NCBI GenBank assembly: GCA_947631855.1
Contig: CANRMX010000007.1
Span: 1-54,803 of the forward strand
DNA from: an uncultured Clostridia bacterium
GTDB lineage: Bacteria; Bacillota; Clostridia; Oscillospirales; Acutalibacteraceae
Length of the DNA: 54,803 nucleotides
Reading direction: 5' to 3'
Shown here one piece after another: positions 9,633-48,075 of the stretch; the stretch's first letter is position 1, and each line of letters begins with the position of its first letter. The notes beneath the pieces are model-generated. The model ran no database searches. It saw nothing but the letters and a program-made list of their open reading frames with translations, and was not told the DNA's origin. The translations under genes and the position numbers were made by a program.

Positions 9633-9638
9633 TATCGG

Positions 9639-9819
9639 CAAATTTTGCTTTCGGTGCGAAGCACCGAATTTCGCAAAGCGAAAGCGCAAAAGTTTGCGTT
9701 GCCATAACAACAACGGCATGGATATTTCCAATCCATCGACAAATTTTGCTTTCGGTGCGAAGCACCGAATTTCGCGAAGCGAAAGCGCAAAAGTTTGCGT
9801 TGCCATAACAACAACGGCA
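9639..9819. repeat. Two direct copies of an 80-bp branched palindromic element
   Basis: Copy 1 is 9639-9718 and copy 2 is 9740-9819 (period 101 bp), identical over 80 bp except one base (A or G in the second hairpin loop). Each copy contains two perfect triloop hairpins, TTCGGTGC[GAA]GCACCGAA and TTTCGC[RAA]GCGAAA, enclosed by an imperfect outer stem in which GCAAA at the left end pairs with TTTGC at the right. Folded, each copy is a three-way junction. No protein is encoded. It resembles a small palindromic repeat (REP or MITE-like), not an insertion sequence. Confidence 0.85.
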
Positions 9820-33494: not shown

Positions 33495-33581
33495 GCCGGA
33501 ATGATGGAATTGGCAGACGTGCTGGACTCAAAATCCAGTGGTAGCGATACCGTGCGGGTTCGACCCCCGCTTCCGGCACCA
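33495..33581 (+). tRNA. tRNA-Leu (anticodon CAA)
   Basis: An 87-nt class II tRNA. The acceptor stem GCCGGAA pairs with TTCCGGC, then A and an encoded CCA (33579-33581). The anticodon stem CTGGA/TCCAG encloses CTCAAAA, giving CAA, and a long variable arm (TGGTAGCGATACCG) precedes the T-arm CGGGTTCGACCCCCG. A terminator follows at once. Its last 13-nt block TCGACCCCCGCTT (33560-33572) recurs at the end of each unit of the downstream array. Confidence 0.97.
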
Positions 33582-33618
33582 AAAGAAACACCTCCCCTTT
33601 TGGGGAGGTATTTCTTTT
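33582..33618 (+). terminator. Terminator of tRNA-Leu
   Basis: AAAGAAACACCTCCCC (33582-33597) pairs with GGGGAGGT and ATTTCTTT around TTTT; one mismatch. Ends in T-rich sequence. Confidence 0.85.
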
Positions 33619-33646
33619 GGCCGAGGGGTCGAACCCGAGAGGGTCC

Positions 33647-34287
33647 GAGCGTAAAGAAAATGTCCCGGTGGGACATTTTTAGCGAAGAGCGGCGAATCCG
33701 GTACTGCGGTGCGCAGCACCGGGGTGGATGAGCCGGCAAGCCGCGCAGCGGCTTGTCGACCCCCGCTTTTTTGCATGGACAGGATTTTAGCCTAGAAGGG
33801 GTGCTGGTCGCCAGTGGCGACCGTTTAGCGCCGTTCTACGCTCCGCTTCGGTCGGTCCTGGGCGCGTCCCGCCGGGACGCAGGACCCGAGCCGGCAGGCG
33901 GGAATCGAGCGTAAAGAAAATGTCCCGGTGGGACATTTTTAGCGAGGAGCGGCGAGACCGAGACCCCACAGCGAAGCTGTGGGGTGGGCGAGCCGGCAGG
34001 CCGCACAGCGGCTTGTCGACCCCGCTTTTTTGCATGGACAGGATTTGAGCCTAGAAGGGGCGCTGGTCGCCGGCGGCGACCGTTTAGCGCCGTTCTACGC
34101 TCCGCTTCGGTCGGTCCTGGGCGCGTCCCACCGGGACGCAGGACCCGAGCCAGCAGACGAGACCTGTACGTTAAGAAAACGTGCCTGTGGCACGTTTTTA
34201 GCGAAGAGCTGCGAAGCCGGTACCACGGCGCGCAGCGCCGGGGTGGATGAGCCGGCAAGCCGCGCAGCGGCTTGTCGACCCCCGCTT
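33647..34287. repeat. Tandem array of about 260-bp multi-hairpin units
   Basis: Two full units (33647-33906, 33907-34165) and a partial third (34166-34287), with no protein frame. Each unit has a T/A-flanked hairpin AAAATGTCCC[GGT] with GGGACATTTT, a GC hairpin (33707-33721, 33963-33985, 34226-34240), AAGCCGC[GCA]GCGGCTT, the block TCGACCCC(C)GCTT shared with the tRNA-Leu 3' end, GGTCGCC[NNN]GGCGACC, and a long stem with GCGTCCC[GNC]GGGACGC-type core. Unit 3 changes both arms of the first hairpin to AAAACGTGCC and GGCACGTTTT, keeping it paired. The array ends exactly at the stop codon of the methyltransferase gene. Confidence 0.85.
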
Positions 34288-34940
34288 CACGCTTCGCCCA
34301 CCCCCATCGCAACAAGAAACCCATTTTCACGGGAGGGCACTATCTCGTATGCCATCCCACCTGCAAGCTTTCCGATCTCCTGGGCAGAATACGGATGGAA
34401 CACCATCCCGTCCCATTTCCCGCGCATGAACCGATAGTCTCCGTCTTCGCTGGTTTCGTGCGGCTCCGACTCATATTCGCTGTCTGTCTCGTCCAAAGTC
34501 AGCAGCACGCAGCCGCCGGGCCGAACGATACGCATGAGCTCCTTCACTGCGTCCATGCCTTGCCGTATAGGCGTGTGGTCAATGACGTCCCTGATGACAA
34601 CCGCGTCAAAAGATTGGGAGGGATACCCTGTTGACAGGACAGAAGCCTGCTTAAAACTCGTTACCGAATATCCATTCTCTGCAAGCAGTTTTTTCGTCAA
34701 CGACACAGCGTCTTCCGCAATATCAAAGCCGGAGACCGAAAAGCCGAACCGTGCCAGTTTAAGCGCATAGACGCCACATCCACATCCGGCGTCGCAGACA
34801 GAATGAACCTCCCGCTTCAGTAGAAAATCAATGATCTCATCTTTTTCCGGGTCTAAACCGGCGGCGTAGGATGCGATGCGATCCGGGGCGATCGCTCCCC
34901 ATGTGCGATCCCAAAACGCTTGATTCGTATCTGCTTTCAT
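34287..34940 (-). CDS. Class I SAM-dependent methyltransferase
   Basis: A 217-residue methyltransferase. The SAM motif I reads VCDAGCGCGVYALKLA (about residues 46-61), followed by the acidic GFDIAED and a motif IV-like DAVVIRDVIDH; RIVRPGGCVLL is the usual post-motif. The substrate is unknown; small-molecule or lipid methylation is plausible. The ATG at 34940 is 7 nt after the stop of the glycosyltransferase, and AGGAGGGGTGAGG spans that junction, so the two form an operon. The stop codon touches the end of the repeat array. Confidence 0.85.
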   Translation of the reverse strand: MKADTNQAFWDRTWGAIAPDRIASYAAGLDPEKDEIIDFLLKREVHSVCDAGCGCGVYALKLARFGFSVSGFDIAEDAVSLTKKLLAENGYSVTSFKQASVLSTGYPSQSFDAVVIRDVIDHTPIRQGMDAVKELMRIVRPGGCVLLTLDETDSEYESEPHETSEDGDYRFMRGKWDGMVFHPYSAQEIGKLAGGMAYEIVPSRENGFLVAMGVGEA

Positions 34941-38460: not shown

Positions 38461-39321
38461 ATGGAATTCGTCATCGTCACCGGACTTTCCGGCGCGGGCA
38501 AGACCCAGGCCATGCACGCGCTGGAGGACATCGGCTTTTTCTGCGTGGACAACCTGCCTCCGGCGCTGATCCCCGTGTTTTATGACCTGTGCACCCAGTC
38601 CGAGGGATTCCGCAGCCGCATCGCGGTGGTCACCGATACCCGGGGCGGCGAGCTGTTCAAATCCTTCTTTGCCGCGCTGGAGACCCTCAAGCGGGATCAC
38701 AAGCCCTACAAGATCTTGTTTTTGGATTCTTCCGACCCGGTGCTGGTGCGCAGGTTCAAGGAGACCCGCCGGCGGCATCCCCTTTCGGATGATCTGGGCG
38801 GGGCGCTGGAGCAGGCGGTGAAGCTGGAGCGGGATATGCTGGGCCCGGTGAAGGACTGCGCGGATTACGTCATCGACACCTCCGGGGTATCGCCGACCCA
38901 GCTGCGGGTGCGGGTCTCTCAGTTGTTTCTGGAAGGGGCAAGCGATTCCCTTTCGGTGCACTGCATCAGCTTCGGATTCAAATTCGGCATCCCCATGGAG
39001 GCGGATCTGGTGTTCGATGTGCGCTGCCTGCCCAATCCCTTTTACGAGGACGCCCTGCGGCCCCTGACGGGATTGGATCCTCAGGTGCGGGATTACGTGA
39101 TGGACAGCGACGACACCCGGGGATTCCTCACCCGTTTCACCGACATGGTGGATTATCTCCTGCCCCTTTACGGCAAGGAGGGCAAGAGCCAGCTGGTGAT
39201 CGCCGTGGGCTGCACCGGCGGGCATCACCGGTCGGTGGCGTTGGCCCAGTATATGTGCGACCACCTGGCGGGGCAGGGGATCCGCGCCAGCGTGACCCAC
39301 CGGGACATTCAGAAGTCGTAA
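38461..39321 (+). CDS. rapZ: RNase adapter protein RapZ (YvcJ family)
   Basis: A 286-residue nucleotide-binding protein. Walker A GLSGAGKT (8-15), DNLPPALI, and near the C-terminus AVGCTGGHHRSVALA, all diagnostic. In E. coli RapZ guides RNase E to the GlmZ small RNA; in Bacillus the role of YvcJ is in competence and cell wall/sugar signalling. The gene normally lies in rapZ-yvcK-whiA order; here yvcK is absent and a palindromic element fills the gap to whiA. ATG 38461 is preceded by GGGAAGAGG. Confidence 0.94.
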   Translation: MEFVIVTGLSGAGKTQAMHALEDIGFFCVDNLPPALIPVFYDLCTQSEGFRSRIAVVTDTRGGELFKSFFAALETLKRDHKPYKILFLDSSDPVLVRRFKETRRRHPLSDDLGGALEQAVKLERDMLGPVKDCADYVIDTSGVSPTQLRVRVSQLFLEGASDSLSVHCISFGFKFGIPMEADLVFDVRCLPNPFYEDALRPLTGLDPQVRDYVMDSDDTRGFLTRFTDMVDYLLPLYGKEGKSQLVIAVGCTGGHHRSVALAQYMCDHLAGQGIRASVTHRDIQKS

Positions 39322-39338
39322 GCGGGTGCTCCGCCCAA

Positions 39339-39418
39339 CCCGCACCGCATCCCGCGCTCCGCGCGGCGCGGCCTCTCTGCGAGAGGGCGCCGTCCCTTCC
39401 GGGACGATGCGGTGCGGG
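39339..39418. repeat. Cloverleaf-like palindromic element 1
   Basis: A perfect 13-bp outer stem, CCCGCACCGCATC (39339-39351) with GATGCGGTGCGGG (39406-39418), encloses three hairpins: CCGCGC[TCC]GCGCGG (39352-39366), CCTCTC[TGC]GAGAGG (39372-39386) and GTCCC[TTCC]GGGAC (39392-39405). No protein frame. It lies between rapZ and whiA, in the place where yvcK normally sits. The same architecture with different sequence occurs at 43606 and 45861. Confidence 0.85.
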
Positions 39419-39453
39419 CCCGGCGGCCCTGCAATAGCCGAAGGAACAAGCCT

Positions 39454-40380
39454 ATGTCATTTTCAGCCAGGACCAAAGCGGAGCTCTGCGAGATCGAGCC
39501 CAAAAAAGACTGCTGCCTGCGGGCCGAATGCTACGGCGCGTGGCTTTTTTCCCGCTGCTTCACGCTGCTGGACGCCGCCTTTACCACCGAAAGCGCTCCT
39601 GCCGCCCGCAGGATGCTGGAGCTTGCCGGGGCTGCCGCAGGCGTCTCCGGGGAATTGACCTACGCCTTCAGCCGCCGGAAAAAGCCCTCCTACCGTGTGA
39701 CCCTGCCCGACGCTGCCGCCCGCCGCCAGCTGCTGGAAACCTTTGGCCACACCGGGCGGGAATCCAGCCTGGGCATCAACCGGGCGGTGCTGGAAAACGA
39801 CTGCTGCACCGCGTCCTTCCTCCGAGGCGCTTTTCTGTCCTGCGGGGCCGCCACGGACCCACAAAAGGACTACCGACTGGAATTCAGCGTCCCCTATCAG
39901 AAGCTGGCAAACGGCCTGTACACCCTGCTCCGGGAAGTGGAAGTATTCTCCGCCCAGCCGCTGTTGGCCAGCCGCCGGGGCGGGTACGCGGTCTATTGGA
40001 AGGACGGCGGCCAGATCGAGGACTTCCTCACCTGGATCGGCGCGCCCAAGGCGGCCATGGAGCTGATGCAGGTGCGGATGTACAAGGAAGCCCGCAACGA
40101 CATCAACCGCAAGGCCAATTTCGAGACCGCCAACATGGACAAGACCTATTCCGCCTCCGCCCGGCAGATCGCCGCCATCGCGGCCATCAGCGACGGTATG
40201 GGGCTGGGGGCGCTGCCCGAGGAGCTGGCGCAGCTGGCCCGGCTGCGCCTGGAGCATCCCGACATGACCCTGCGGGAACTGAGCGCGGCCCTGGGCATCA
40301 GCCGCAGCGGCGCGAATCACCGGATGCAGCGGCTGCTGGAATTGGGAGAAAAACTGCTAAAAGACCAGATCAGCGAATAA
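39454..40380 (+). CDS. whiA: DNA-binding protein WhiA
   Basis: A 308-residue regulator. The N-terminal part is a degenerate LAGLIDADG homing-endonuclease fold (CYGAWLFSRCF and SCGAATDPQKDY regions); the C-terminal 80 residues hold a helix-turn-helix (MTLRELSAALGISRSGANHRMQRL). In Actinobacteria and Bacillus it affects cell division and chromosome segregation. ATG 39454 follows GAAGGAAC by 6 nt. The cluster rapZ-whiA-dnaE-pfkA is conserved in Firmicutes. Confidence 0.95.
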   Translation: MSFSARTKAELCEIEPKKDCCLRAECYGAWLFSRCFTLLDAAFTTESAPAARRMLELAGAAAGVSGELTYAFSRRKKPSYRVTLPDAAARRQLLETFGHTGRESSLGINRAVLENDCCTASFLRGAFLSCGAATDPQKDYRLEFSVPYQKLANGLYTLLREVEVFSAQPLLASRRGGYAVYWKDGGQIEDFLTWIGAPKAAMELMQVRMYKEARNDINRKANFETANMDKTYSASARQIAAIAAISDGMGLGALPEELAQLARLRLEHPDMTLRELSAALGISRSGANHRMQRLLELGEKLLKDQISE

Positions 40381-40408
40381 CGGGAATCCAACGAAAGGGG
40401 GTGGGGAC

Positions 40409-43400
40409 ATGGGGTTTGTCCATCTGCACGTGCACACGGAATACAGCCTTCTGGACGGCGCCTGCCGCATCGAGCAGCTGCTGGACCGGGTGGGAGAGCT
40501 GGGGCAGGAGGCGGTGGCCATCACCGACCACGGCGTGATGTACGGCGTGATCGATTTCTACAAGGCCGCCAAAAAGCGCGGCATCCGGCCCATCCTTGGG
40601 TGCGAGGTGTATGTGGCTCCCCGCACCCGTTTGGATATGGTGCACGAGCTGGATCGGGAAAACCGTCATCTGGTGCTGCTCTGCGAGAACGGCACGGGGT
40701 ACCGCAATCTCATGGCGCTGGTGTCCCGCGGCTTCACCGAGGGATTTTATAACCGCCCGCGGGTGGACATGGAGCTGCTGCAGCAGTACCACGAGGGGCT
40801 CATCGCCCTGTCGGCCTGTCTGGCGGGGGAAGTGGCCCGGGACCTGTCCCGTGGGGAGTATTCCGCCGCCAAGGAGGCCGCCCTGCGGTACGACGCCATT
40901 TTCGGCCGTGGGAATTTCTATCTGGAGCTGCAGGATCACGGCCTTGCCCAGCAGAAAGAAGTGAACGCCGGCATCCTCCGCATCGCCCAGGAGACGGGCA
41001 TCCCGCTGGTGGCCACCAACGACTGCCACTACATCCGGCAGGAGGATCACGAGATGCACAACGTGCTGCTGTGCATCCAGACCGGCCGCACCTTGGAGGA
41101 CGAGACGGGCATGGGCTTCGAGACCCAGGAATTTTATGTAAAGAGCGAAGCAGAGATGCGCGCCCTGTTCCCGGAGATCCCCGAGGCCATCGAGAACACG
41201 GAGCGCATCGCCCGGCGGTGCAATGTGGAGATCGAATTCGGCGTCACCCGCCTGCCCCGGTTCGACCCGCCGGACGGCTCTGACAGTGAGACCTTCTTCC
41301 AAAACCTCTGCTGGGAGGGCCTTGCCCGAAGATATGGAGACGATCCTCCGCCCGCCGTGAAAGAGCGGCTTTCCTACGAGCTGGACGTGATCACCCGCAT
41401 GGGTTATGTAAACTACTATCTCATTGTGTGGGATTTCATCCGCTACGCCCGCAGCGTGGAGATTCCCGTGGGCCCGGGCAGAGGCTCGGGGGCAGCCAGT
41501 CTGGCGGCCTATTGCGTGGGCATCACCAACGTGGACCCCATCCGCTACAATCTGATCTTCGAGCGATTCCTCAACGCCGAGCGTGTGAGCATGCCTGATT
41601 TTGACATCGATTTCTCCGACGAGCGCCGGGACGAGATCATCCGCTATGTGGTGGACAAGTACGGCGCGGACCATGTGGCCCAGATCGTCACCTTCGGCAC
41701 CATGGCGGCCCGGGGCGCGGTGCGGGACGTGGGCCGGGTGATGGGCATGCCCTACAGCGCGGTGGATCAGGTGGCGAAGCTCATCCCCATGGAGCTGGGC
41801 ATCACGCTGGAGGAGGCCATCCGCCGCTCCAAGGACCTGCGCCAGCGGATGGAGGACGACAGCCGCATCGAGGCGCTGATCCGCATGGCCCAAAAGCTGG
41901 AGGGGATGCCCAGGCACGCTTCCACCCACGCGGCGGGGGTGCTGATCACCGACCGGCCCGTCACCGACTACGTGCCCCTGGCCAAGAACGACGACGCGGT
42001 GGTGGCCCAGTTCACCATGAACGCCATCGCCGACCTGGGGCTGCTGAAGATGGACTTCCTGGGCCTGCGGAATCTGTCGGTGATCGACAATGCCCAGAAG
42101 CTCATCCGCCGCCGCCAGCCGGATTTCAACATCGAGACGGTGCCCGACGACGACCCGGATGTGTTCGCCATGCTGTCCGCCGGGGAGACCTCCGGGGTGT
42201 TCCAGCTGGAAAGCGCGGGGATGCGCAGGCTCACCATGCAGGCCGGGTGCAGGAGCATCGAGGATATCACCGCGGTGATCGCCCTGTACCGTCCCGGCCC
42301 CATGCAGTTTATTCCGCAGTATCTGGAGAACAAGCGAATCCCGGGCAAGACCGCCTATCTCTGCGAGGAACTGCGGCCGATTTTGGAAGTGACCAGCGGG
42401 TGCATCATCTATCAGGAGCAGGTGATGCAGATTTTCCGGGACCTGGCGGGGTACTCCATGGGCCGGGCGGATATCGTGCGCCGGGCCATGTCCAAAAAGA
42501 AACGGGACGTGCTGGAGCAGGAGCGCAAAGTGTTTCTCTACGGCGAGCAGCGGGAGGACGGCTCCTACGCGGTGGACGGGTGCATCCGCCGGGGCATCCC
42601 GGAGGCCGTGGCCGAGGAGCTTTTCCGGGAGATCGGGGATTTTGCCTCCTACGCCTTCAACAAGGCTCACGCGGCCTGCTACGCCGTGGTGGCCTACGAG
42701 ACGGCCTATCTCAAGCGCCATTGGCCCCGGGAGTACATGGCGGCGCTGCTTTCCAGCGTGCTGGGCTGGACGGGCAAGGCCGTGGAATATATGGAGGAAT
42801 GCCGCCGGCTGGGCATCCGGGTGCTGCCGCCCCATGTGAACGACAGCGGGCCGGGCTTCTCTGTGGAGGAGGGCGGCATCCGCTACGGGCTGCTGGCGGT
42901 GAAAAATCTCGGGCGGAACATGATCGCCAATATCGTTGCCCAGCGGGAGGCGGGGGGAAGGTACGATTCTTTTTGGGATTTCTGCCGCCGCACCGCCGGG
43001 AAGGAGCTGAACCGCCGGGCGCTGGAGAGCCTGATCCTCTGTGGCGCACTGGACGGGCTGGGCAATAACCGCCGGGAGATGCTGCTGGGTCTGGACGATG
43101 TGCTGGCGGCGCTGGAGGCCGACAAACGGCGGAACCTGGAGGGGCAGATCGGATTTTTCGACACCGGAGGCGGCATGGGCTCCGGGGACCCGGAGCTGGC
43201 CCACGTGGAGGAATTTTCCGCCGCCGACCTGCTGGCCCGGGAAAAGGAAGTGACCGGGATGTACCTTTCCGGCCACCCCATGATGGATTATACGGAGCAG
43301 TACCGCAGTGGGGCATACGCCCGCACCGACGAGATCGCCGAATCCGCCCGGGAGGGCACGGGCCCCTACCGGGACGGCCAGCGGGTGCGGGTGCTGGCGC

Positions 43401-43951
43401 TGATCACCGAACTGCGGGACAAATACACCAAATCCGGCGGGCGGATGGCCTTCCTCACGCTGGAAGATATGTACGGCGCCTTGACGGGGCTGGTGTTCCC
43501 CAAGGTGCTGGAGGAAAACCGGGATCGGATCGCGGTTGGGCAGGCCGTGGCGGTGACCGGCCGGCTGAGCTTCACCGAGGATCAGGAGCCCGAACTGCTC
43601 TGCGAGGGGTTTTCCGCCCCGGCTGCGCCGGGGCGGCCTCCCGCGCCTTCGGCGCGGGGGGCCGGTCTGCCCCCTGGGGCAGACCGGAAAACCCCCGCCG
43701 GGAAGGCCGCCCGCCCCGGCCTCTACCTCAAGGTGGCGTCCAGGGATGACCCCAAGGTGGAAAAAGCCCTGCGGTTTACCGCTATCTTTGACGAAGGGCA
43801 GGACGACCTGTACCTGTTCTACCGGGACGAGGGCCGGCTGATGAAAGCCCCGGCCCGGCTGCGCACCCGGTGCAATCCGGTGCTGCTGGCGGCGCTGCGG
43901 GAACTGCTGGGGGAAGAAAACGTGGCATTTGTGCCGGCTGGCAGGAATTAG
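40409..43951 (+). CDS. dnaE: DNA polymerase III subunit alpha (DnaE)
   Basis: A 1180-residue C-family replicative polymerase. The PHP domain starts at FVHLHVHTEYSLLDG (3-17). The catalytic Asp triad lies in PDFDIDF (Asp397, Asp399, Asp401), followed by the helix-hairpin-helix region near 840-900 and an OB-fold domain (about 985-1060). Residues 1066-1096 (GFSAPAAPGRPP...) are Pro/Ala-rich and coincide exactly with cloverleaf element 2, 90 bp in frame, between the OB fold and the C-terminal domain. ATG 40409 follows AAAGGGGG. The protein is otherwise of normal length. The stop lies at 43949-43951. Confidence 0.96.
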   Translation: MGFVHLHVHTEYSLLDGACRIEQLLDRVGELGQEAVAITDHGVMYGVIDFYKAAKKRGIRPILGCEVYVAPRTRLDMVHELDRENRHLVLLCENGTGYRNLMALVSRGFTEGFYNRPRVDMELLQQYHEGLIALSACLAGEVARDLSRGEYSAAKEAALRYDAIFGRGNFYLELQDHGLAQQKEVNAGILRIAQETGIPLVATNDCHYIRQEDHEMHNVLLCIQTGRTLEDETGMGFETQEFYVKSEAEMRALFPEIPEAIENTERIARRCNVEIEFGVTRLPRFDPPDGSDSETFFQNLCWEGLARRYGDDPPPAVKERLSYELDVITRMGYVNYYLIVWDFIRYARSVEIPVGPGRGSGAASLAAYCVGITNVDPIRYNLIFERFLNAERVSMPDFDIDFSDERRDEIIRYVVDKYGADHVAQIVTFGTMAARGAVRDVGRVMGMPYSAVDQVAKLIPMELGITLEEAIRRSKDLRQRMEDDSRIEALIRMAQKLEGMPRHASTHAAGVLITDRPVTDYVPLAKNDDAVVAQFTMNAIADLGLLKMDFLGLRNLSVIDNAQKLIRRRQPDFNIETVPDDDPDVFAMLSAGETSGVFQLESAGMRRLTMQAGCRSIEDITAVIALYRPGPMQFIPQYLENKRIPGKTAYLCEELRPILEVTSGCIIYQEQVMQIFRDLAGYSMGRADIVRRAMSKKKRDVLEQERKVFLYGEQREDGSYAVDGCIRRGIPEAVAEELFREIGDFASYAFNKAHAACYAVVAYETAYLKRHWPREYMAALLSSVLGWTGKAVEYMEECRRLGIRVLPPHVNDSGPGFSVEEGGIRYGLLAVKNLGRNMIANIVAQREAGGRYDSFWDFCRRTAGKELNRRALESLILCGALDGLGNNRREMLLGLDDVLAALEADKRRNLEGQIGFFDTGGGMGSGDPELAHVEEFSAADLLAREKEVTGMYLSGHPMMDYTEQYRSGAYARTDEIAESAREGTGPYRDGQRVRVLALITELRDKYTKSGGRMAFLTLEDMYGALTGLVFPKVLEENRDRIAVGQAVAVTGRLSFTEDQEPELLCEGFSAPAAPGRPPAPSARGAGLPPGADRKTPAGKAARPGLYLKVASRDDPKVEKALRFTAIFDEGQDDLYLFYRDEGRLMKAPARLRTRCNPVLLAALRELLGEENVAFVPAGRN
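43606..43695. repeat. Cloverleaf-like palindromic element 2, inside dnaE
   Basis: The outer stem GGGGTTTTCC (43606-43615) and GGAAAACCCC (43686-43695) is perfect. Inside are GCCCCGGC[TGC]GCCGGGGC (43616-43634), a 13-bp stem with loop TTC (43635-43663) and a 9-bp stem GGTCTGCCC with GGGCAGACC, loop CCTG (43664-43685). It is exactly 90 bp, 30 codons, with no stop codon in the dnaE frame. Other DnaE proteins known to me have a short linker there, so it looks like an inserted element kept as a coding insert. Confidence 0.82.
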
Positions 43952-43983
43952 TGGAGAATCGAGAAAATATTGCCCAAAACCTC

Positions 43984-44011
43984 TTGATATTTTCCCCCGG
44001 TTTGGTATAAT
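43984..44011 (+). promoter_or_regulatory. Promoter of pfkA
   Basis: TTGATA (43984-43989), 16-bp spacer, TATAAT (44006-44011), 72 nt before the start. Confidence 0.7.
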
Positions 44012-44083
44012 GAATCCATACAACAGATTCGTCCGGTCGGGCGTATCCGTCCGATCCTACTATGAATGATGGAGGCGGCAACT

Positions 44084-45052
44084 ATGGGTGCAAAAAGTAT
44101 TGCGGTATTGACCAGTGGGGGCGACGCTCCCGGGATGAACGCTGCGGTGCGTGCGGTGGTGCGTTCGGCGATCAGCGCAGGGATGAAGGTCTACGGCGTG
44201 AAGCGCGGGTTTAACGGCCTGCTGCACAGCGATTTGGTAGAGATGAACCTGCGCAGCGTGTCGGACATCATCCAGGATGGCGGCACGGTGCTGTTCACCG
44301 CCCGCAGCCCGGAATTCAATACGCCCGAGGGCGTGGCGAAGGCTGCGGAAAATTGCAGGAAGCTGGGGATCGACGGCGTGGTGGTCATCGGCGGCGACGG
44401 CTCGTTCCGCGGCGCGCGGGATCTCACCGGCGCTGGGGTGCTGTGCATCGGCATGCCCGGCACCATCGACAACGACATTGCCTGCACGGATTTCACCATC
44501 GGCTACGACACGGCGCTGAACACCGCCATGGAGATGATCGACCGCCTGCAGGACACTTCCGAATCCCATGACCGGTGCAGCGTCGTGGAGGTCATGGGCC
44601 GTCACTGCGGCGACATCGCCCTGCAGGTGGGCATCGCCACCGGGGCCGTGGCCACGCTGGTGCCCGAAGTCCCCTATGATTTTGACCGGGACATCGTGCA
44701 GAAGATCGAGATGGTGCGCGCCACCGGCAAGACCCACTTCATCGTGGTGGTGGCCGAGGGCGTGGGCCACACCGAGGCCCTGGCGCGGAAGATCGAGGAG
44801 ACCACGGGCGTGGAGAGCCGTGCGACGATCCTGGGCCATGTGCAGCGCGGCGGGCATCCCACCGTGCGGGACCGTGTGCTGGCTGGCCGCATGGGCTATC
44901 ATGCGGTGCAGCTGCTGGAGCAGGGCGTGGGCAACCGGGTGGTGGCCGTCAAGGGCGACACCATCGTGGACTACGACATCACCGAGGCGCTGGATATGCC
45001 CCGGGTCTTTGACGAGAAGCTGCTGGAGATATCCGGCAAGCTGTCGCTGTAA
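44084..45052 (+). CDS. pfkA: 6-phosphofructokinase
   Basis: Phosphorylates fructose 6-phosphate with ATP in glycolysis; a 322-residue group A enzyme. It shows TSGGDAPGMNA (N-terminal nucleotide loop), GGDGSFRGA (ATP/Mg), PGTIDNDI (catalytic Asp), MGRHCGDIA and GHVQRGGHP (effector/substrate site). ATG 44084 lies 8 nt after GGAGG; an in-frame ATG at 44066 has no ribosome site. The residue after GGDG favours ATP rather than pyrophosphate as donor. Usual allosteric regulation by PEP/ADP is expected from the family. Confidence 0.96.
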   Translation: MGAKSIAVLTSGGDAPGMNAAVRAVVRSAISAGMKVYGVKRGFNGLLHSDLVEMNLRSVSDIIQDGGTVLFTARSPEFNTPEGVAKAAENCRKLGIDGVVVIGGDGSFRGARDLTGAGVLCIGMPGTIDNDIACTDFTIGYDTALNTAMEMIDRLQDTSESHDRCSVVEVMGRHCGDIALQVGIATGAVATLVPEVPYDFDRDIVQKIEMVRATGKTHFIVVVAEGVGHTEALARKIEETTGVESRATILGHVQRGGHPTVRDRVLAGRMGYHAVQLLEQGVGNRVVAVKGDTIVDYDITEALDMPRVFDEKLLEISGKLSL

Positions 45053-45070
45053 AATCTGCATACATACGGA

Positions 45071-45097
45071 AAGCCGCCCAGTTTCGGGCGGCTTTTT
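45071..45097 (+). terminator. Terminator of pfkA
   Basis: AAGCCGCCC (45071-45079) pairs with GGGCGGCTT (45086-45094), followed by TTT. Confidence 0.8.
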
Positions 45098-45122
45098 CGC
45101 GCTTTTTGGATCGCCGGATCCC

Positions 45123-45797
45123 TCACAGCCGGACTGGCACCTCCCGGTCGAGGGCCATGCTGTTTGGCGTGACCAGGCAGTCCACCGCCAGCACCTGCAC
45201 GCCGTTTGCCGCGGCCTCCCGCAGCGCGGCCGCAAAGGCGGGATCGGTGGCGGCGTTTGGCTCGAACCGGGTGACGCCCTTCATTTGCACCACGAAAAGC
45301 GCCATGGCGCGATAGCCCTCCCGCACCGCACGCATCAGCTCCCGCAGGTGCTTTTCGCCCCGCTGGGTGGGCGCGTCCGGGAACCGGGCAACACCGTCTT
45401 CCTCCAGCGTCACGCCCTTCACCTCGATAAATCCCCGGGCCTCTCCGGCCTCGGCGTAGAAATCGAACCGGGAGTCGCCGTAGACGGTTTCCGGCCTAAG
45501 CAAAGTCAGCCCGGGAATCAGCCTTGGGAGCGCCTCTTTCGCGGCGGCATTGGGGGCCTGGCTGTCCATGTTGATGAGCAAACTCCCCTTTTCCACTGCG
45601 ATCAGGTCGTACCGAGTCTTCCTGGTTGGATTTTTCCCCTCCGCCAGATAGACCGTTGCGCCGGGCACCAGCAATTCCCTGCACCGGCCGGTGTTCTTCA
45701 CATGGACGGTCTCCACCTTGCCGTGCAGCTCCACCCGGGCGATGAACCGGTTTGGCCGGGCCAGAAACCGCGCTTTTTCCACTGTGCCGTATTCCAT
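45123..45797 (-). CDS. sfsA: SfsA family DNA-binding protein
   Basis: A 224-residue homologue of E. coli sugar fermentation stimulation protein, a DNA-binding protein tied to maltose metabolism; the biochemical role is still poorly defined. Family features are FIARVELHG, HVKNTGRCRELL, DSQAPN, SRFDFY, FIEVKGVTLEEDGVARFPDAPT (a PD-(D/E)xK-like core) and HLRELM. The ATG at 45797 is used; the longer upstream frame is within the palindromic element. GGGGGATCACT precedes it. It converges on pfkA. Confidence 0.9.
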   Translation of the reverse strand: MEYGTVEKARFLARPNRFIARVELHGKVETVHVKNTGRCRELLVPGATVYLAEGKNPTRKTRYDLIAVEKGSLLINMDSQAPNAAAKEALPRLIPGLTLLRPETVYGDSRFDFYAEAGEARGFIEVKGVTLEEDGVARFPDAPTQRGEKHLRELMRAVREGYRAMALFVVQMKGVTRFEPNAATDPAFAAALREAAANGVQVLAVDCLVTPNSMALDREVPVRL

Positions 45798-45820
45798 AGT
45801 GATCCCCCGCTTTCCCGTGT

Positions 45821-45849
45821 ATTGTACCATTGAACCGGCACAAATGCAA
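45821..45849 (-). promoter_or_regulatory. Promoter of sfsA
   Basis: Minus strand TTGCAT (complement of 45844-45849), 17-bp spacer, TACAAT (complement of 45821-45826), 24 nt before the start. Confidence 0.72.
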
Positions 45850-45860
45850 CGCCCCACCTC

Positions 45861-45938
45861 CGCGCCTCCCGGCCCGCCCCTGCGGGGCGGGCCGCCTTCC
45901 TTCGGGAGGCCGCCGGGCTCCGCCCGGCGGGAGGCGCG
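45861..45938. repeat. Cloverleaf-like palindromic element 3
   Basis: Outer stem CGCGCCTCC (45861-45869) with GGAGGCGCG (45930-45938). Inside, three hairpins in a row: a 10-bp stem GGCCCGCCCC with loop TGC (45871-45893), GCCTTCC[TTC]GGGAGGC (45894-45910) and CGCCGGGC[TCC]GCCCGGCG (45911-45929). Loops TGC and TTC occur in the same order as in element 2. It lies between the divergent sfsA and GH120-like genes. Confidence 0.83.
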
Positions 45939-45967
45939 CTGCTTGCCGTACATTTTACCAAATCCCC

Positions 45968-45996
45968 TTGCGCCCGGGCAGAAAAAAGAGTATACT
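45968..45996 (+). promoter_or_regulatory. Promoter of the beta-helix glycosidase gene
   Basis: TTGCGC (45968-45973), 17-bp spacer, TATACT (45991-45996), 39 nt before the start. Confidence 0.7.
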
Positions 45997-46035
45997 GATG
46001 CCAGAATGACCGCAACCTCAGAAAGGAGAAGTCAA

Positions 46036-48075
46036 ATGAATCTGTATGTTTCCTGCACCGCGGGCCGCGCCGGCGACGGCACCCGCGAACACCCCTTCAA
46101 GACGATCTCTCAGGCGGCGGATGCAGCCCGCCCCGGCGATACCGTCTGGGTGGCGCCCGGTGTGTACCGGGAATGGGTGGACCCCAAAATCGGCGGCACG
46201 GACGCCCAGCATCCCGTTACCTACCGCTCCACCGAGCCTCTGGCTGCGGTGATCACCGGCGCGGAGGAGGTCAAGTGCTGGCAGCCTTTGGGCGGCGGCG
46301 TGTGGACGGCGCGTATTGCCAACGGTGTTTTTGGGGAGTATAATCCCTATACCACGCTGGTCTCCGGCGACTGGTTTATCGCCTCCATGGTCGCCCACAC
46401 CGGCGATGTCTATCTGAACCGCAAGTCCCTCTACGAGGTCACGGACTTGGAGAAGGTCTACCACCCGGAGATCTCCAAAGCCTCCTGGGATCCGGAATTC
46501 TCCGTCTACACCTGGTACACCGAGCAGGACGAGACCCGGAACGAAACGGTGCTCTACGCCAATTTCCACGATTTCGACCCCAATCGGGAAAACGTGGAGA
46601 TCAGCGTCCGCCCGGCCTGCTTCTATCCCAAACAGGAGGGTATCGGCTTCATCACCCTCAGCGGCTTCACCGTCTGCCAGGCGGCCACCCAGTGGGCGCC
46701 GCCCACCGCCTATCAGGAGGGCATGATCGGCCCCCACTGGTCCAAGGGCTGGGTGATCGAGGACTGCGAAATCTTTGAATCCAAATGCTCCGGCATCTCC
46801 CTGGGCAAGTACCGCCAGCAGGGCAACGACAACAAGTGGCTCCACTGGAAGTATAAGGACGGCACCCAGACCGAGCGGGAGTGCATCCTGCAGGCCCAGC
46901 GGGAGGGCTGGACGAAGGAGCGCATCGGCTCCCACATCGTGCGCAGGTGCAATATCCACGATTGCGGCCAGACCGGCATCGTGGGCCACCTGGGCGGAGT
47001 TTTCTCGCTCATCGAGGACAACCACATCCACCACATCAACAACAAGCAGAATCTGGCGGGGGCCGAGATCGGCGGCATCAAGATGCACGCCGCTATCGAC
47101 GTGATTTTCCGCCGCAACCACATCCACCACTGCACCCGTGGCATCTGGCTGGATTGGCAGGCCCAGGGCACCCGTGTCACCCAGAACCTGTTCCACCACA
47201 ACACCCTGCCCAACCTCAGCGAAACGGAATCGCCCAGCATGGAGGCCATGGCGGGCATGGGGGAGGACGTGTTTATCGAAGTCTCCCACGGCCCCACGCT
47301 GCTGGACAACAACCTGTTCCTGTCGGCCCGGGCGCTGAAACTGGCCACCCAGGGCGTGGCGCTGGTGCACAATCTGATCGCCGGCGCTTTCACCACGGTG
47401 GGCCAGGGCACCGATAACGGCGCCAAGACCCTGAATTCTCCCCGCTACACGCCCTATCATGTGCCCCACCGCACCGAGGTGGCGGGCTTCATGACCTTCC
47501 TCCACGGGGATATGCGCTTCTACAACAACATCTTCGTCCAGCAGCCCATGCACCCGGTGCTGAAGGCCGCCATGGACGCCGCCGCCTCCGGCCCGCCCAA
47601 CGGCTGGGATGACGCCAACATCGCCGTGGGCACCTTCCCCTATAACGGCTATCCCACCCAGGCGGAGTGGGAGCGGGAATTCGAGGGCTACTGCGGCATG
47701 GGCAGCGCCCCCAGCGACCGGTACTATATGCACCTGCCTATGTGGGCGGCCGGCAACGTCTATATGAACGGCGCCCGCCCCTGGGAGAAGGAGGAAAACC
47801 CCGTGCTGGCGGAGGGCGAAGTCACCCTCGACCTGCGGGAAGAAAACGGGCAGATCACGCTGGACACCAACCTCTACGACCTCCTGCCGGAGGTACATCT
47901 CCCGCTGATCGCCACTGAGACTCTGGGCATGGCCTTCGAGCCGGAGGAGCGCTTTGAATCTCCCGACGGCGCGCCCATCCTCTTTGACCGGGATTATTTC
48001 GGCGAGCCCCGGGGCGTCAGCGCCCTGCCCGGGCCCTTTGCCGATGGCCATGACGCCGCCCGCGATCTCCTGTGA
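46036..48075 (+). CDS. Right-handed beta-helix glycosidase, GH120-like (beta-xylosidase family)
   Basis: A 679-residue protein with parallel beta-helix repeats from about 20 to 580. The N-terminal motif GTREHPFKTISQAADAA is the DUF1565-like cap, and GDTVWVAPGVYREWVDP, ATQWAPPTAYQ, HWSKGWVIEDC, HIHHINNKQN and GIWLDWQAQG (Asp373 a candidate nucleophile) recall GH120 beta-xylosidases such as Thermoanaerobacterium XylC. No signal peptide: it would act on imported xylo-oligosaccharides in the cytoplasm. ATG 46036 follows AAAGGAGA by 6 nt. GH assignment is by memory of the family, not alignment. Confidence 0.7.
   Translation: MNLYVSCTAGRAGDGTREHPFKTISQAADAARPGDTVWVAPGVYREWVDPKIGGTDAQHPVTYRSTEPLAAVITGAEEVKCWQPLGGGVWTARIANGVFGEYNPYTTLVSGDWFIASMVAHTGDVYLNRKSLYEVTDLEKVYHPEISKASWDPEFSVYTWYTEQDETRNETVLYANFHDFDPNRENVEISVRPACFYPKQEGIGFITLSGFTVCQAATQWAPPTAYQEGMIGPHWSKGWVIEDCEIFESKCSGISLGKYRQQGNDNKWLHWKYKDGTQTERECILQAQREGWTKERIGSHIVRRCNIHDCGQTGIVGHLGGVFSLIEDNHIHHINNKQNLAGAEIGGIKMHAAIDVIFRRNHIHHCTRGIWLDWQAQGTRVTQNLFHHNTLPNLSETESPSMEAMAGMGEDVFIEVSHGPTLLDNNLFLSARALKLATQGVALVHNLIAGAFTTVGQGTDNGAKTLNSPRYTPYHVPHRTEVAGFMTFLHGDMRFYNNIFVQQPMHPVLKAAMDAAASGPPNGWDDANIAVGTFPYNGYPTQAEWEREFEGYCGMGSAPSDRYYMHLPMWAAGNVYMNGARPWEKEENPVLAEGEVTLDLREENGQITLDTNLYDLLPEVHLPLIATETLGMAFEPEERFESPDGAPILFDRDYFGEPRGVSALPGPFADGHDAARDLL

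Follow-up and report, generated by a model that had tools for sequence, protein, structure and literature searches.

Short palindromic repeats have been described in several bacterial and organellar systems. Repetitive extragenic palindromes (REPs) and the bacterial interspersed mosaic elements (BIMEs) are short, dispersed and mostly intergenic, and REPs retain their palindromic character through complementary mutations (PMC2817692). REPs are single palindromes of 20–40 bp tied to genes for REP-associated tyrosine transposases (RAYT). A review (PMC2229807) describes bacterial repeats resembling miniature inverted-repeat transposable elements (MITEs), which are short and non-coding, carry terminal inverted repeats and lie between and inside genes, together with the Rickettsia palindromic elements of 105–146 bp, which have long stem-loops and terminal inverted repeats and can occur in-frame inside conserved protein genes. 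Hairpin-forming palindromic elements of fungal and sponge mitochondria are described as mobile or invading. The elements reported in the present study came to light as three copies in a 54,803-nucleotide contig of an uncultured Clostridia bacterium (the whole contig is hereafter called the window). They are likewise dispersed palindromic repeats, and are neither REPs nor proven MITEs. They resemble REPs and BIMEs in being short, palindromic and mostly intergenic, but the unit is about 75–110 bp long, with a closing stem around three hairpins, and the Y1 transposase family had no match in three genomes rich in elements. MITE-like small repeat families are recognised by sequence, whereas many of the present copies had no BLAST relative and were united by their fold; no target duplication was seen by eye, and no parent transposase was found among the families searched (Y1, IS110 and reverse transcriptase). 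The mitochondrial elements, double-hairpin elements among them, differ in being organellar and in having one hairpin or two, where the bacterial chromosome studied here has closed four-way junctions. No four-way-junction repeat family was described in the titles and abstracts found in open-licence PMC literature.

Our results make it moderately probable that these elements form a lineage-restricted family of short, gene-less, dispersed palindromic repeats, held to a four-way-junction fold and spread in trans. What is conserved is a closed four-way junction, in which an outer stem encloses three hairpins, mostly with 3-nt tips. DNA folding gave such a junction on both strands for all three elements of the window (Table 1), at the places and in the shape proposed in the earlier note, and none of 200 dinucleotide shuffles of each element folded as well. 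The hairpin loops given there agreed with the computed folds. The outer stems, put there at 9–13 bp, turned out to be 12, 8 and 8 bp in the minimum-energy structures, and the arms, said to pair perfectly, do so nearly but not strictly, as arm 2 of element 1 holds a 1×1 mismatch. A covariance model (R1) was then built from the trimmed cores of seven elements. Its 81 matches, with most elements present in both strands, had 98.0% of 2472 pair cells paired compared with 57.1% after shuffling, in an alignment that favours structure by construction. Two-sided changes were found at 32 of 32 pairs, and pairing fell to 45–52% when the partners were slid by one to three columns. GT pairs were rare (17 of 1955), fewer than expected of a fold selected in RNA. 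The fold and the compensatory changes are thus directly observed, suggesting that shape more than letters is conserved.

The window is contig C7 of its genome (G000; 1.84 Mb in 59 contigs, 81% complete), whose closest named DnaE relatives, at ~55% identity, are from uncultured Clostridia/Oscillospiraceae. In G000 and its congeners G004 (about 97% complete) and G043 (85% complete), strict thresholds yielded 52 closed junctions with three hairpins, five with two and none with four; looser thresholds and more of G043 yielded 57, 21 and one respectively. Three hairpins are therefore the main but not the sole form. Clean copies, for which we required at least 78% pairing, a fold no weaker than −0.38 kcal per base and a length of at most 125 bp, consisted of the closing stem and three hairpins and measured 77–107 bp in the printed set. 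The outer stem was self-complementary, with 8–22 pairs in the printed structures, and is a terminal inverted repeat as in a MITE. The hairpin tips were also uniform. Among 153 loops of 51 copies, 111 were of 3 nt; 106 of these have a closing C-G, and the sequence is GNA or the complementary TNC in 72. The C-GNA-G hairpin is an unusually stable DNA mini-hairpin. Such tips were also present in 54 of 102 hairpins outside the elements with stems of at least 9 bp in the same genomes, and the trend was not seen in long hairpins of element-poor congeners (3/17) or of other Clostridia (2/22).

Other junction shapes were seen beside this family. A separate family in G043 comprises five closed two-hairpin (three-way-junction) repeats, similar to one another and about 60–71 bp long (L253 2664–2725 and 15870–15933, L326 173–234, L327 4680–4750 and L334 2794–2853). 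Further two-hairpin repeats of 58–71 bp lie in G022 (L221 and L224, 1501–1558) and G043 (L318 11816–11886), and a TACCGG motif next to the second hairpin is common to L224 and L318. The sole closed four-hairpin (five-way) junction was seen in G043 (L326 19790–19890), with its first and last hairpins alike.

We analysed the distribution of the family by fold scans and by R1. A sliding DNA fold over 20 G000 stretches outside the window (400 kb, cut-off 77% paired) revealed six further distinct junctions (nine rows, three of them nested duplicates), whereas a dinucleotide-shuffled copy of the identical 400 kb gave none. Over all the G000 DNA scanned, 854.8 kb or 46% of the genome with the window included, 25 raw fold matches were reduced to 15 clean copies, the window's three among them; extrapolation would place about 30 copies in the whole genome. 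In 396.6 kb of G004, 39 raw matches left 23 clean copies. G043 had 11 in 390 kb, unevenly spread, with 10 in a first 85 kb chosen for contigs with matches and one in the next 305 kb. The latter also gave weaker R1 matches, and those inspected were hairpin strings or two-hairpin repeats. Two junctions were found in 80 kb of G011 and one in 35 kb of G023. In sampled stretches of 12 further congeners there were none in 11 and one weak candidate in G010, and 80 loci outside the genus (1.28 Mb) showed no fold match at the cut-off and no R1 match at E up to 5. G+C content alone is insufficient, as the 305 kb of G043, at 61–70% G+C in all but one masked piece (L336, which has no G or C at all and was treated as masked), held a single clean copy. 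Chance folding of G+C-rich DNA was ruled out by the shuffle control, the non-genus DNA and these G043 stretches.

On the fetched G000 stretches, R1 recovered 13 of the 15 clean copies at E up to 0.025, missing L142:14892 and L144:9160; its whole-genome search of G000 gave five places at E <0.01 and, in addition, a weak one. The genus survey, with 150 candidates scored of up to 2895, gave matches in 5 of 29 genomes (G000, G004, G043, G022 and G007), those of G022 being two-hairpin repeats and that of G007 unclosed hairpins. An order-wide survey that scored at most 12 candidates per genome matched one of 394 genomes, G000 itself, and says little. Viral carriage was also considered and rejected: a 16-mer of a G004 subfamily retrieved 39 IMG/VR stretches with no convincing junction (best R1 E 0.64), and a second pattern retrieved none. 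The dispersed family suspected in the earlier note is real, as the covariance model and the fold scans gave additional copies in G000, and others were found in G004, G043, G011 and G023.

Some residual sequence similarity was detected. By eye, outer stems often begin with CCCGC or CCGCC, and CGCC, CTTTT/AAAAG and CCGCC recur in the arms. Identities of 77–79% were found between some copies, within G000 and between G000 and G004, and element 3 matched a G004 copy at 78% over 83 bp. Queried with 60-bp flanks against the sampled loci, 8 of the 15 G000 copies were without a BLAST match at E 1e-4; two of the other seven matched only via host sequence (element 2 via the G043 dnaE, L028:17511 via its flank). 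The idea of a shared fold without shared sequence thus holds for the fold and for the many copies with no BLAST relative, but not for those that are 77–79% alike.

Change over short times is visible in a G004 subfamily, for which a single query matched at least 32 places in one genome. The same query had no match in 27 of the other 28 genus genomes and one weak match in G042, and the multiplication and dispersal of this subfamily are directly evident. In 30 parsed copies the mean divergence was 0.8% in arm 2 and 4.7% in the 14-bp left flank; the outer stem and the greater part of arm 2 are set by the parsing pattern, so that their conservation is partly by construction. Arm 3 was hypervariable, with a mean difference of 34% and 29 distinct sequences. 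Its own halves paired at 96% (−16.2 kcal/mol) compared with 70% (−7.3 kcal/mol) for halves swapped between copies. One-mismatch intermediates occur in the subfamily and the arms of three tandem copies in L170 are imperfect, so that arm change seems to be stepwise rather than instantly corrected. In another G004 stretch (L166 1500–4900), the intergenic gaps are made of several short repeat families, among them GCGAC-hairpin units (a 56-nt family with four members) as well as one truncated member of the junction subfamily.

We then compared orthologous sites. WhiA was located in 26 congeners, and R1 found no junction near their whiA or dnaE loci at E <0.7. A fold scan of 10 congener whiA loci showed the rapZ–whiA gap to be without a junction in all of them. 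Eight congener gaps are only 17–47 bp long (with whiA starts taken partly from the match start); others are longer, some with another gene. At eight sites both neighbours were adjacent in another sampled genome (three of these rely on a flank of <55% identity), and one, that of element 3, was filled in a second species, G004. The mapping of empty sites called for in the earlier note thus found most of those tested to be empty in relatives, and fixation at orthologous places across the family was not what we observed. Presence and absence were found between species; movement itself was not seen. The sfsA–GH120 site is filled in G000 and G004. It is empty in two other congeners, G014 and G016, and in these the beginning of the GH120-like gene was recognised by eye. 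In five other congeners no junction lay within 400 bp upstream of sfsA, the neighbour genes there not being identified. The G004 arms fit element 3 better in inverted orientation, which could reflect flipping at the outer repeats or an independent arrival. Element 2 lies in a DnaE linker that varies among relatives, compared here in rows with a readable translation, and the dnaE reading frame stays open across its 90 bp, a position like that of the palindromes inside Rickettsia protein genes described in PMC2229807. The earlier note did not mention this location in dnaE. Codons under the left outer stem of element 2 align with residues that are conserved at the linker edge in the relatives.

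The genomic positions of the copies are also biased. Forty-five of the 52 clean copies were intergenic, six genic (at least one wrongly called) and one at an edge, in DNA of which 82–88% was called coding. The gene positions are from a simple purpose-written caller with unreliable start calls; for whiA the start was 159 bp too late, and G004 L163:5536, a copy upstream of sfsA, was called genic. Among the 34 intergenic copies outside the G004 subfamily, 13 lay within 15 bp of a stop codon (5.0 expected, simulated P 5e-5) and two within 15 bp of a start codon (3.1 expected), and 11 were between convergent genes compared with 105 of 657 gaps. This enrichment is compatible with insertions being tolerated at gene ends or with the copies acting at transcript ends. 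At gathering score, Rfam gave no match in the window apart from two tRNAs and none in seven further sources; within 39300–45980 nothing matched over the elements even with E allowed up to 10. None of six terminator-like sites in 39200–46100 overlapped the three elements, in a scan confined to those of the window. An identity of the window elements as intrinsic terminators or Rfam RNAs was thus ruled out.

A partner enzyme was sought among three groups. The Y1/RAYT family PF01797 had no match in G004 or in the incomplete genomes G000 and G043, at odds with the RAYT-like partner suggested in the earlier note, and reverse transcriptase (RVT) families had none in the same genomes. Of the 29 genus genomes, nine carry Y1 transposases. 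G011 has both Y1 and reverse transcriptase families, and the exclusion of such partners therefore rests on the other three genomes. G000 had four IS110 matches, G004 one partial match at the edge of a contig and G043 none over the cut-off; this partner was rejected as inconsistent, many matches also coming from G022 and G005, where the sampled stretches were free of junctions.

We consider it most likely that the elements are a family of MITE/REP-like non-autonomous repeats constrained to a four-way-junction fold. Both transposition and recognition by shape are what we infer from the observations above. The outer stem would act like a terminal inverted repeat, and a recombination or transposition activity supplied in trans would spread the copies, requiring the folded DNA shape (an extruded cruciform or single strand) together with some bases close to the junction. 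Farther out, the arms could then drift in sequence while complementarity persists, whether through selection on that function, through template-switch repair or through both; insertions in genes and promoters would mostly be lost, leaving the remaining copies intergenic and beside stop codons. Several results weigh against this reading. No partner was found among Y1, IS110 and RVT (DDE transposases, integrases and junction resolvases were not searched for), and no target-site duplication was evident by eye in 30-bp flanks, with no close empty site compared. In dnaE the net gain over G043 is 16 amino acids (48 bp), not 30 (90 bp); therefore a simple 90-bp insertion is not shown, in which respect element 2 may differ from the Rickettsia elements. 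The sfsA–GH120 copy is old, because its site is common to two species. Two-hairpin repeats exist beside the three-hairpin form, the enrichment at stop codons and between convergent genes is also compatible with an RNA role, and 36 copies with an inferred direction held 11 GT pairs in the sense fold and three in the antisense fold, a weak hint toward RNA. A variant that we regard as unlikely is that an enzyme of resolvase or integrase type recognises the four-way junction as such and processes it by shape, the elements being selfish or host-used DNA with which the genome encodes a mimic of the Holliday junction. If so, sequence would diversify almost freely, with one arm hypervariable within a genome.

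The positional bias and the excess of sense GT pairs would also suit functional RNA elements at transcript ends, either stabilisers or bidirectional terminators as for some REPs and BIMEs, in which the fold is selected in RNA and spread is secondary. We hold this explanation to be doubtful, given the overall rarity of GT pairs, the absence of Rfam matches and of terminator-like features in the window elements, and the lack of conservation of most sites; moreover, element 1 splits a gene pair usually adjacent in relatives, element 2 is within dnaE and element 3 lies between divergent genes. Less probable still is a local origin and repair of the palindromes through replication template switching, with no mobile family and the shape a by-product. 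Template switching is known to create and maintain perfect stems (PMC8794818), GNA/TNC tips are common in long hairpins outside the elements, and the left outer stem of element 2 shares codons with the conserved linker edge, all of which would agree with local origin. However, it leaves unexplained the preference for three hairpins, the residual homology of copies at different loci, and the common flank, arm 1 and arm 2 of the G004 subfamily, whose arm-2 loops keep one direction, so that no loop inversion is seen; the imperfect arms of the L170 tandem copies show that correction is not automatic. Movement by a RAYT or IS200/IS605 (Y1 HUH) transposase, as for REPs, is very improbable. Hairpins and intergenic dispersal do resemble REPs, and G011 is among the genomes with Y1 transposases, but a closed four-way junction is a different unit from a single short palindrome, and PF01797 was without a match in the three genomes richest in elements, one of them nearly complete. 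If the family is confirmed, it is one discovered through its fold, and repeat finders that work on sequence would break it up or overlook it. It provides a natural collection of nearly perfect four-way junctions in DNA, with which one could test directly whether selection or replication is the source of compensatory change in DNA palindromes.

Table 1. Coordinates of the three window elements and of their neighbouring genes (fold energies are for the + strand)
Feature	Position	Strand	Description
Element 1 (80 bp)	39339–39418		Between rapZ and whiA; DNA fold −40.2 kcal/mol, z −7.4; R1 cmsearch E 0.025
Element 1 outer stem	39339–39350 / 39407–39418		12 bp
Element 1 arms	39352–39366 (arm 1); 39368–39390 (arm 2); 39391–39406 (arm 3)		One 1×1 mismatch in arm 2
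Element 2 (90 bp)	43606–43695		Inside dnaE frame; DNA fold −48.4 kcal/mol, z −8.0; R1 E 5.9e-5
Element 2 outer stem	43606–43613 / 43688–43695		8 bp, plus 3 bp from flanking bases
Element 2 arms	43614–43636 (arm 1); 43637–43661 (arm 2); 43662–43687 (arm 3)		
Element 3 (78 bp)	45861–45938		Between divergent sfsA and GH120-like gene; DNA fold −40.7 kcal/mol, z −5.3; R1 E 8.9e-4
Element 3 outer stem	45861–45868 / 45931–45938		8 bp
Element 3 arms	45870–45894 (arm 1); 45895–45909 (arm 2); 45910–45930 (arm 3)		
rapZ	38461–39321	+	Pfam RapZ domains; stop codon 17 bp upstream of element 1
whiA	39454–40380	+	Pfam HTH_WhiA and LAGLIDADG_WhiA; downstream of element 1
dnaE (DNA polymerase III alpha)	40409–43951	+	Pfam DNA_pol3_alpha, PHP and others; hosts element 2
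sfsA	45123–45797	−	Pfam SfsA; left of element 3
GH120-like gene	46036–48075	+	Pfam Glyco_hydro_120_ins; right of element 3

Other repeats were seen elsewhere in the window. At 9638–9797 there are two copies of an A+T-richer repeat of 58–60 bp, ~102 bp apart, each a closed two-hairpin junction, and the sequence linking them is also repeated. At 33495–34300, the 3′ side of a tRNA-Leu gene carries a hairpin, then an inverted partial copy of the T-arm of the gene, followed by three similar palindrome-rich units. A like arrangement was found at L021 8810–9078, after sequence resembling tRNA-Leu by eye.

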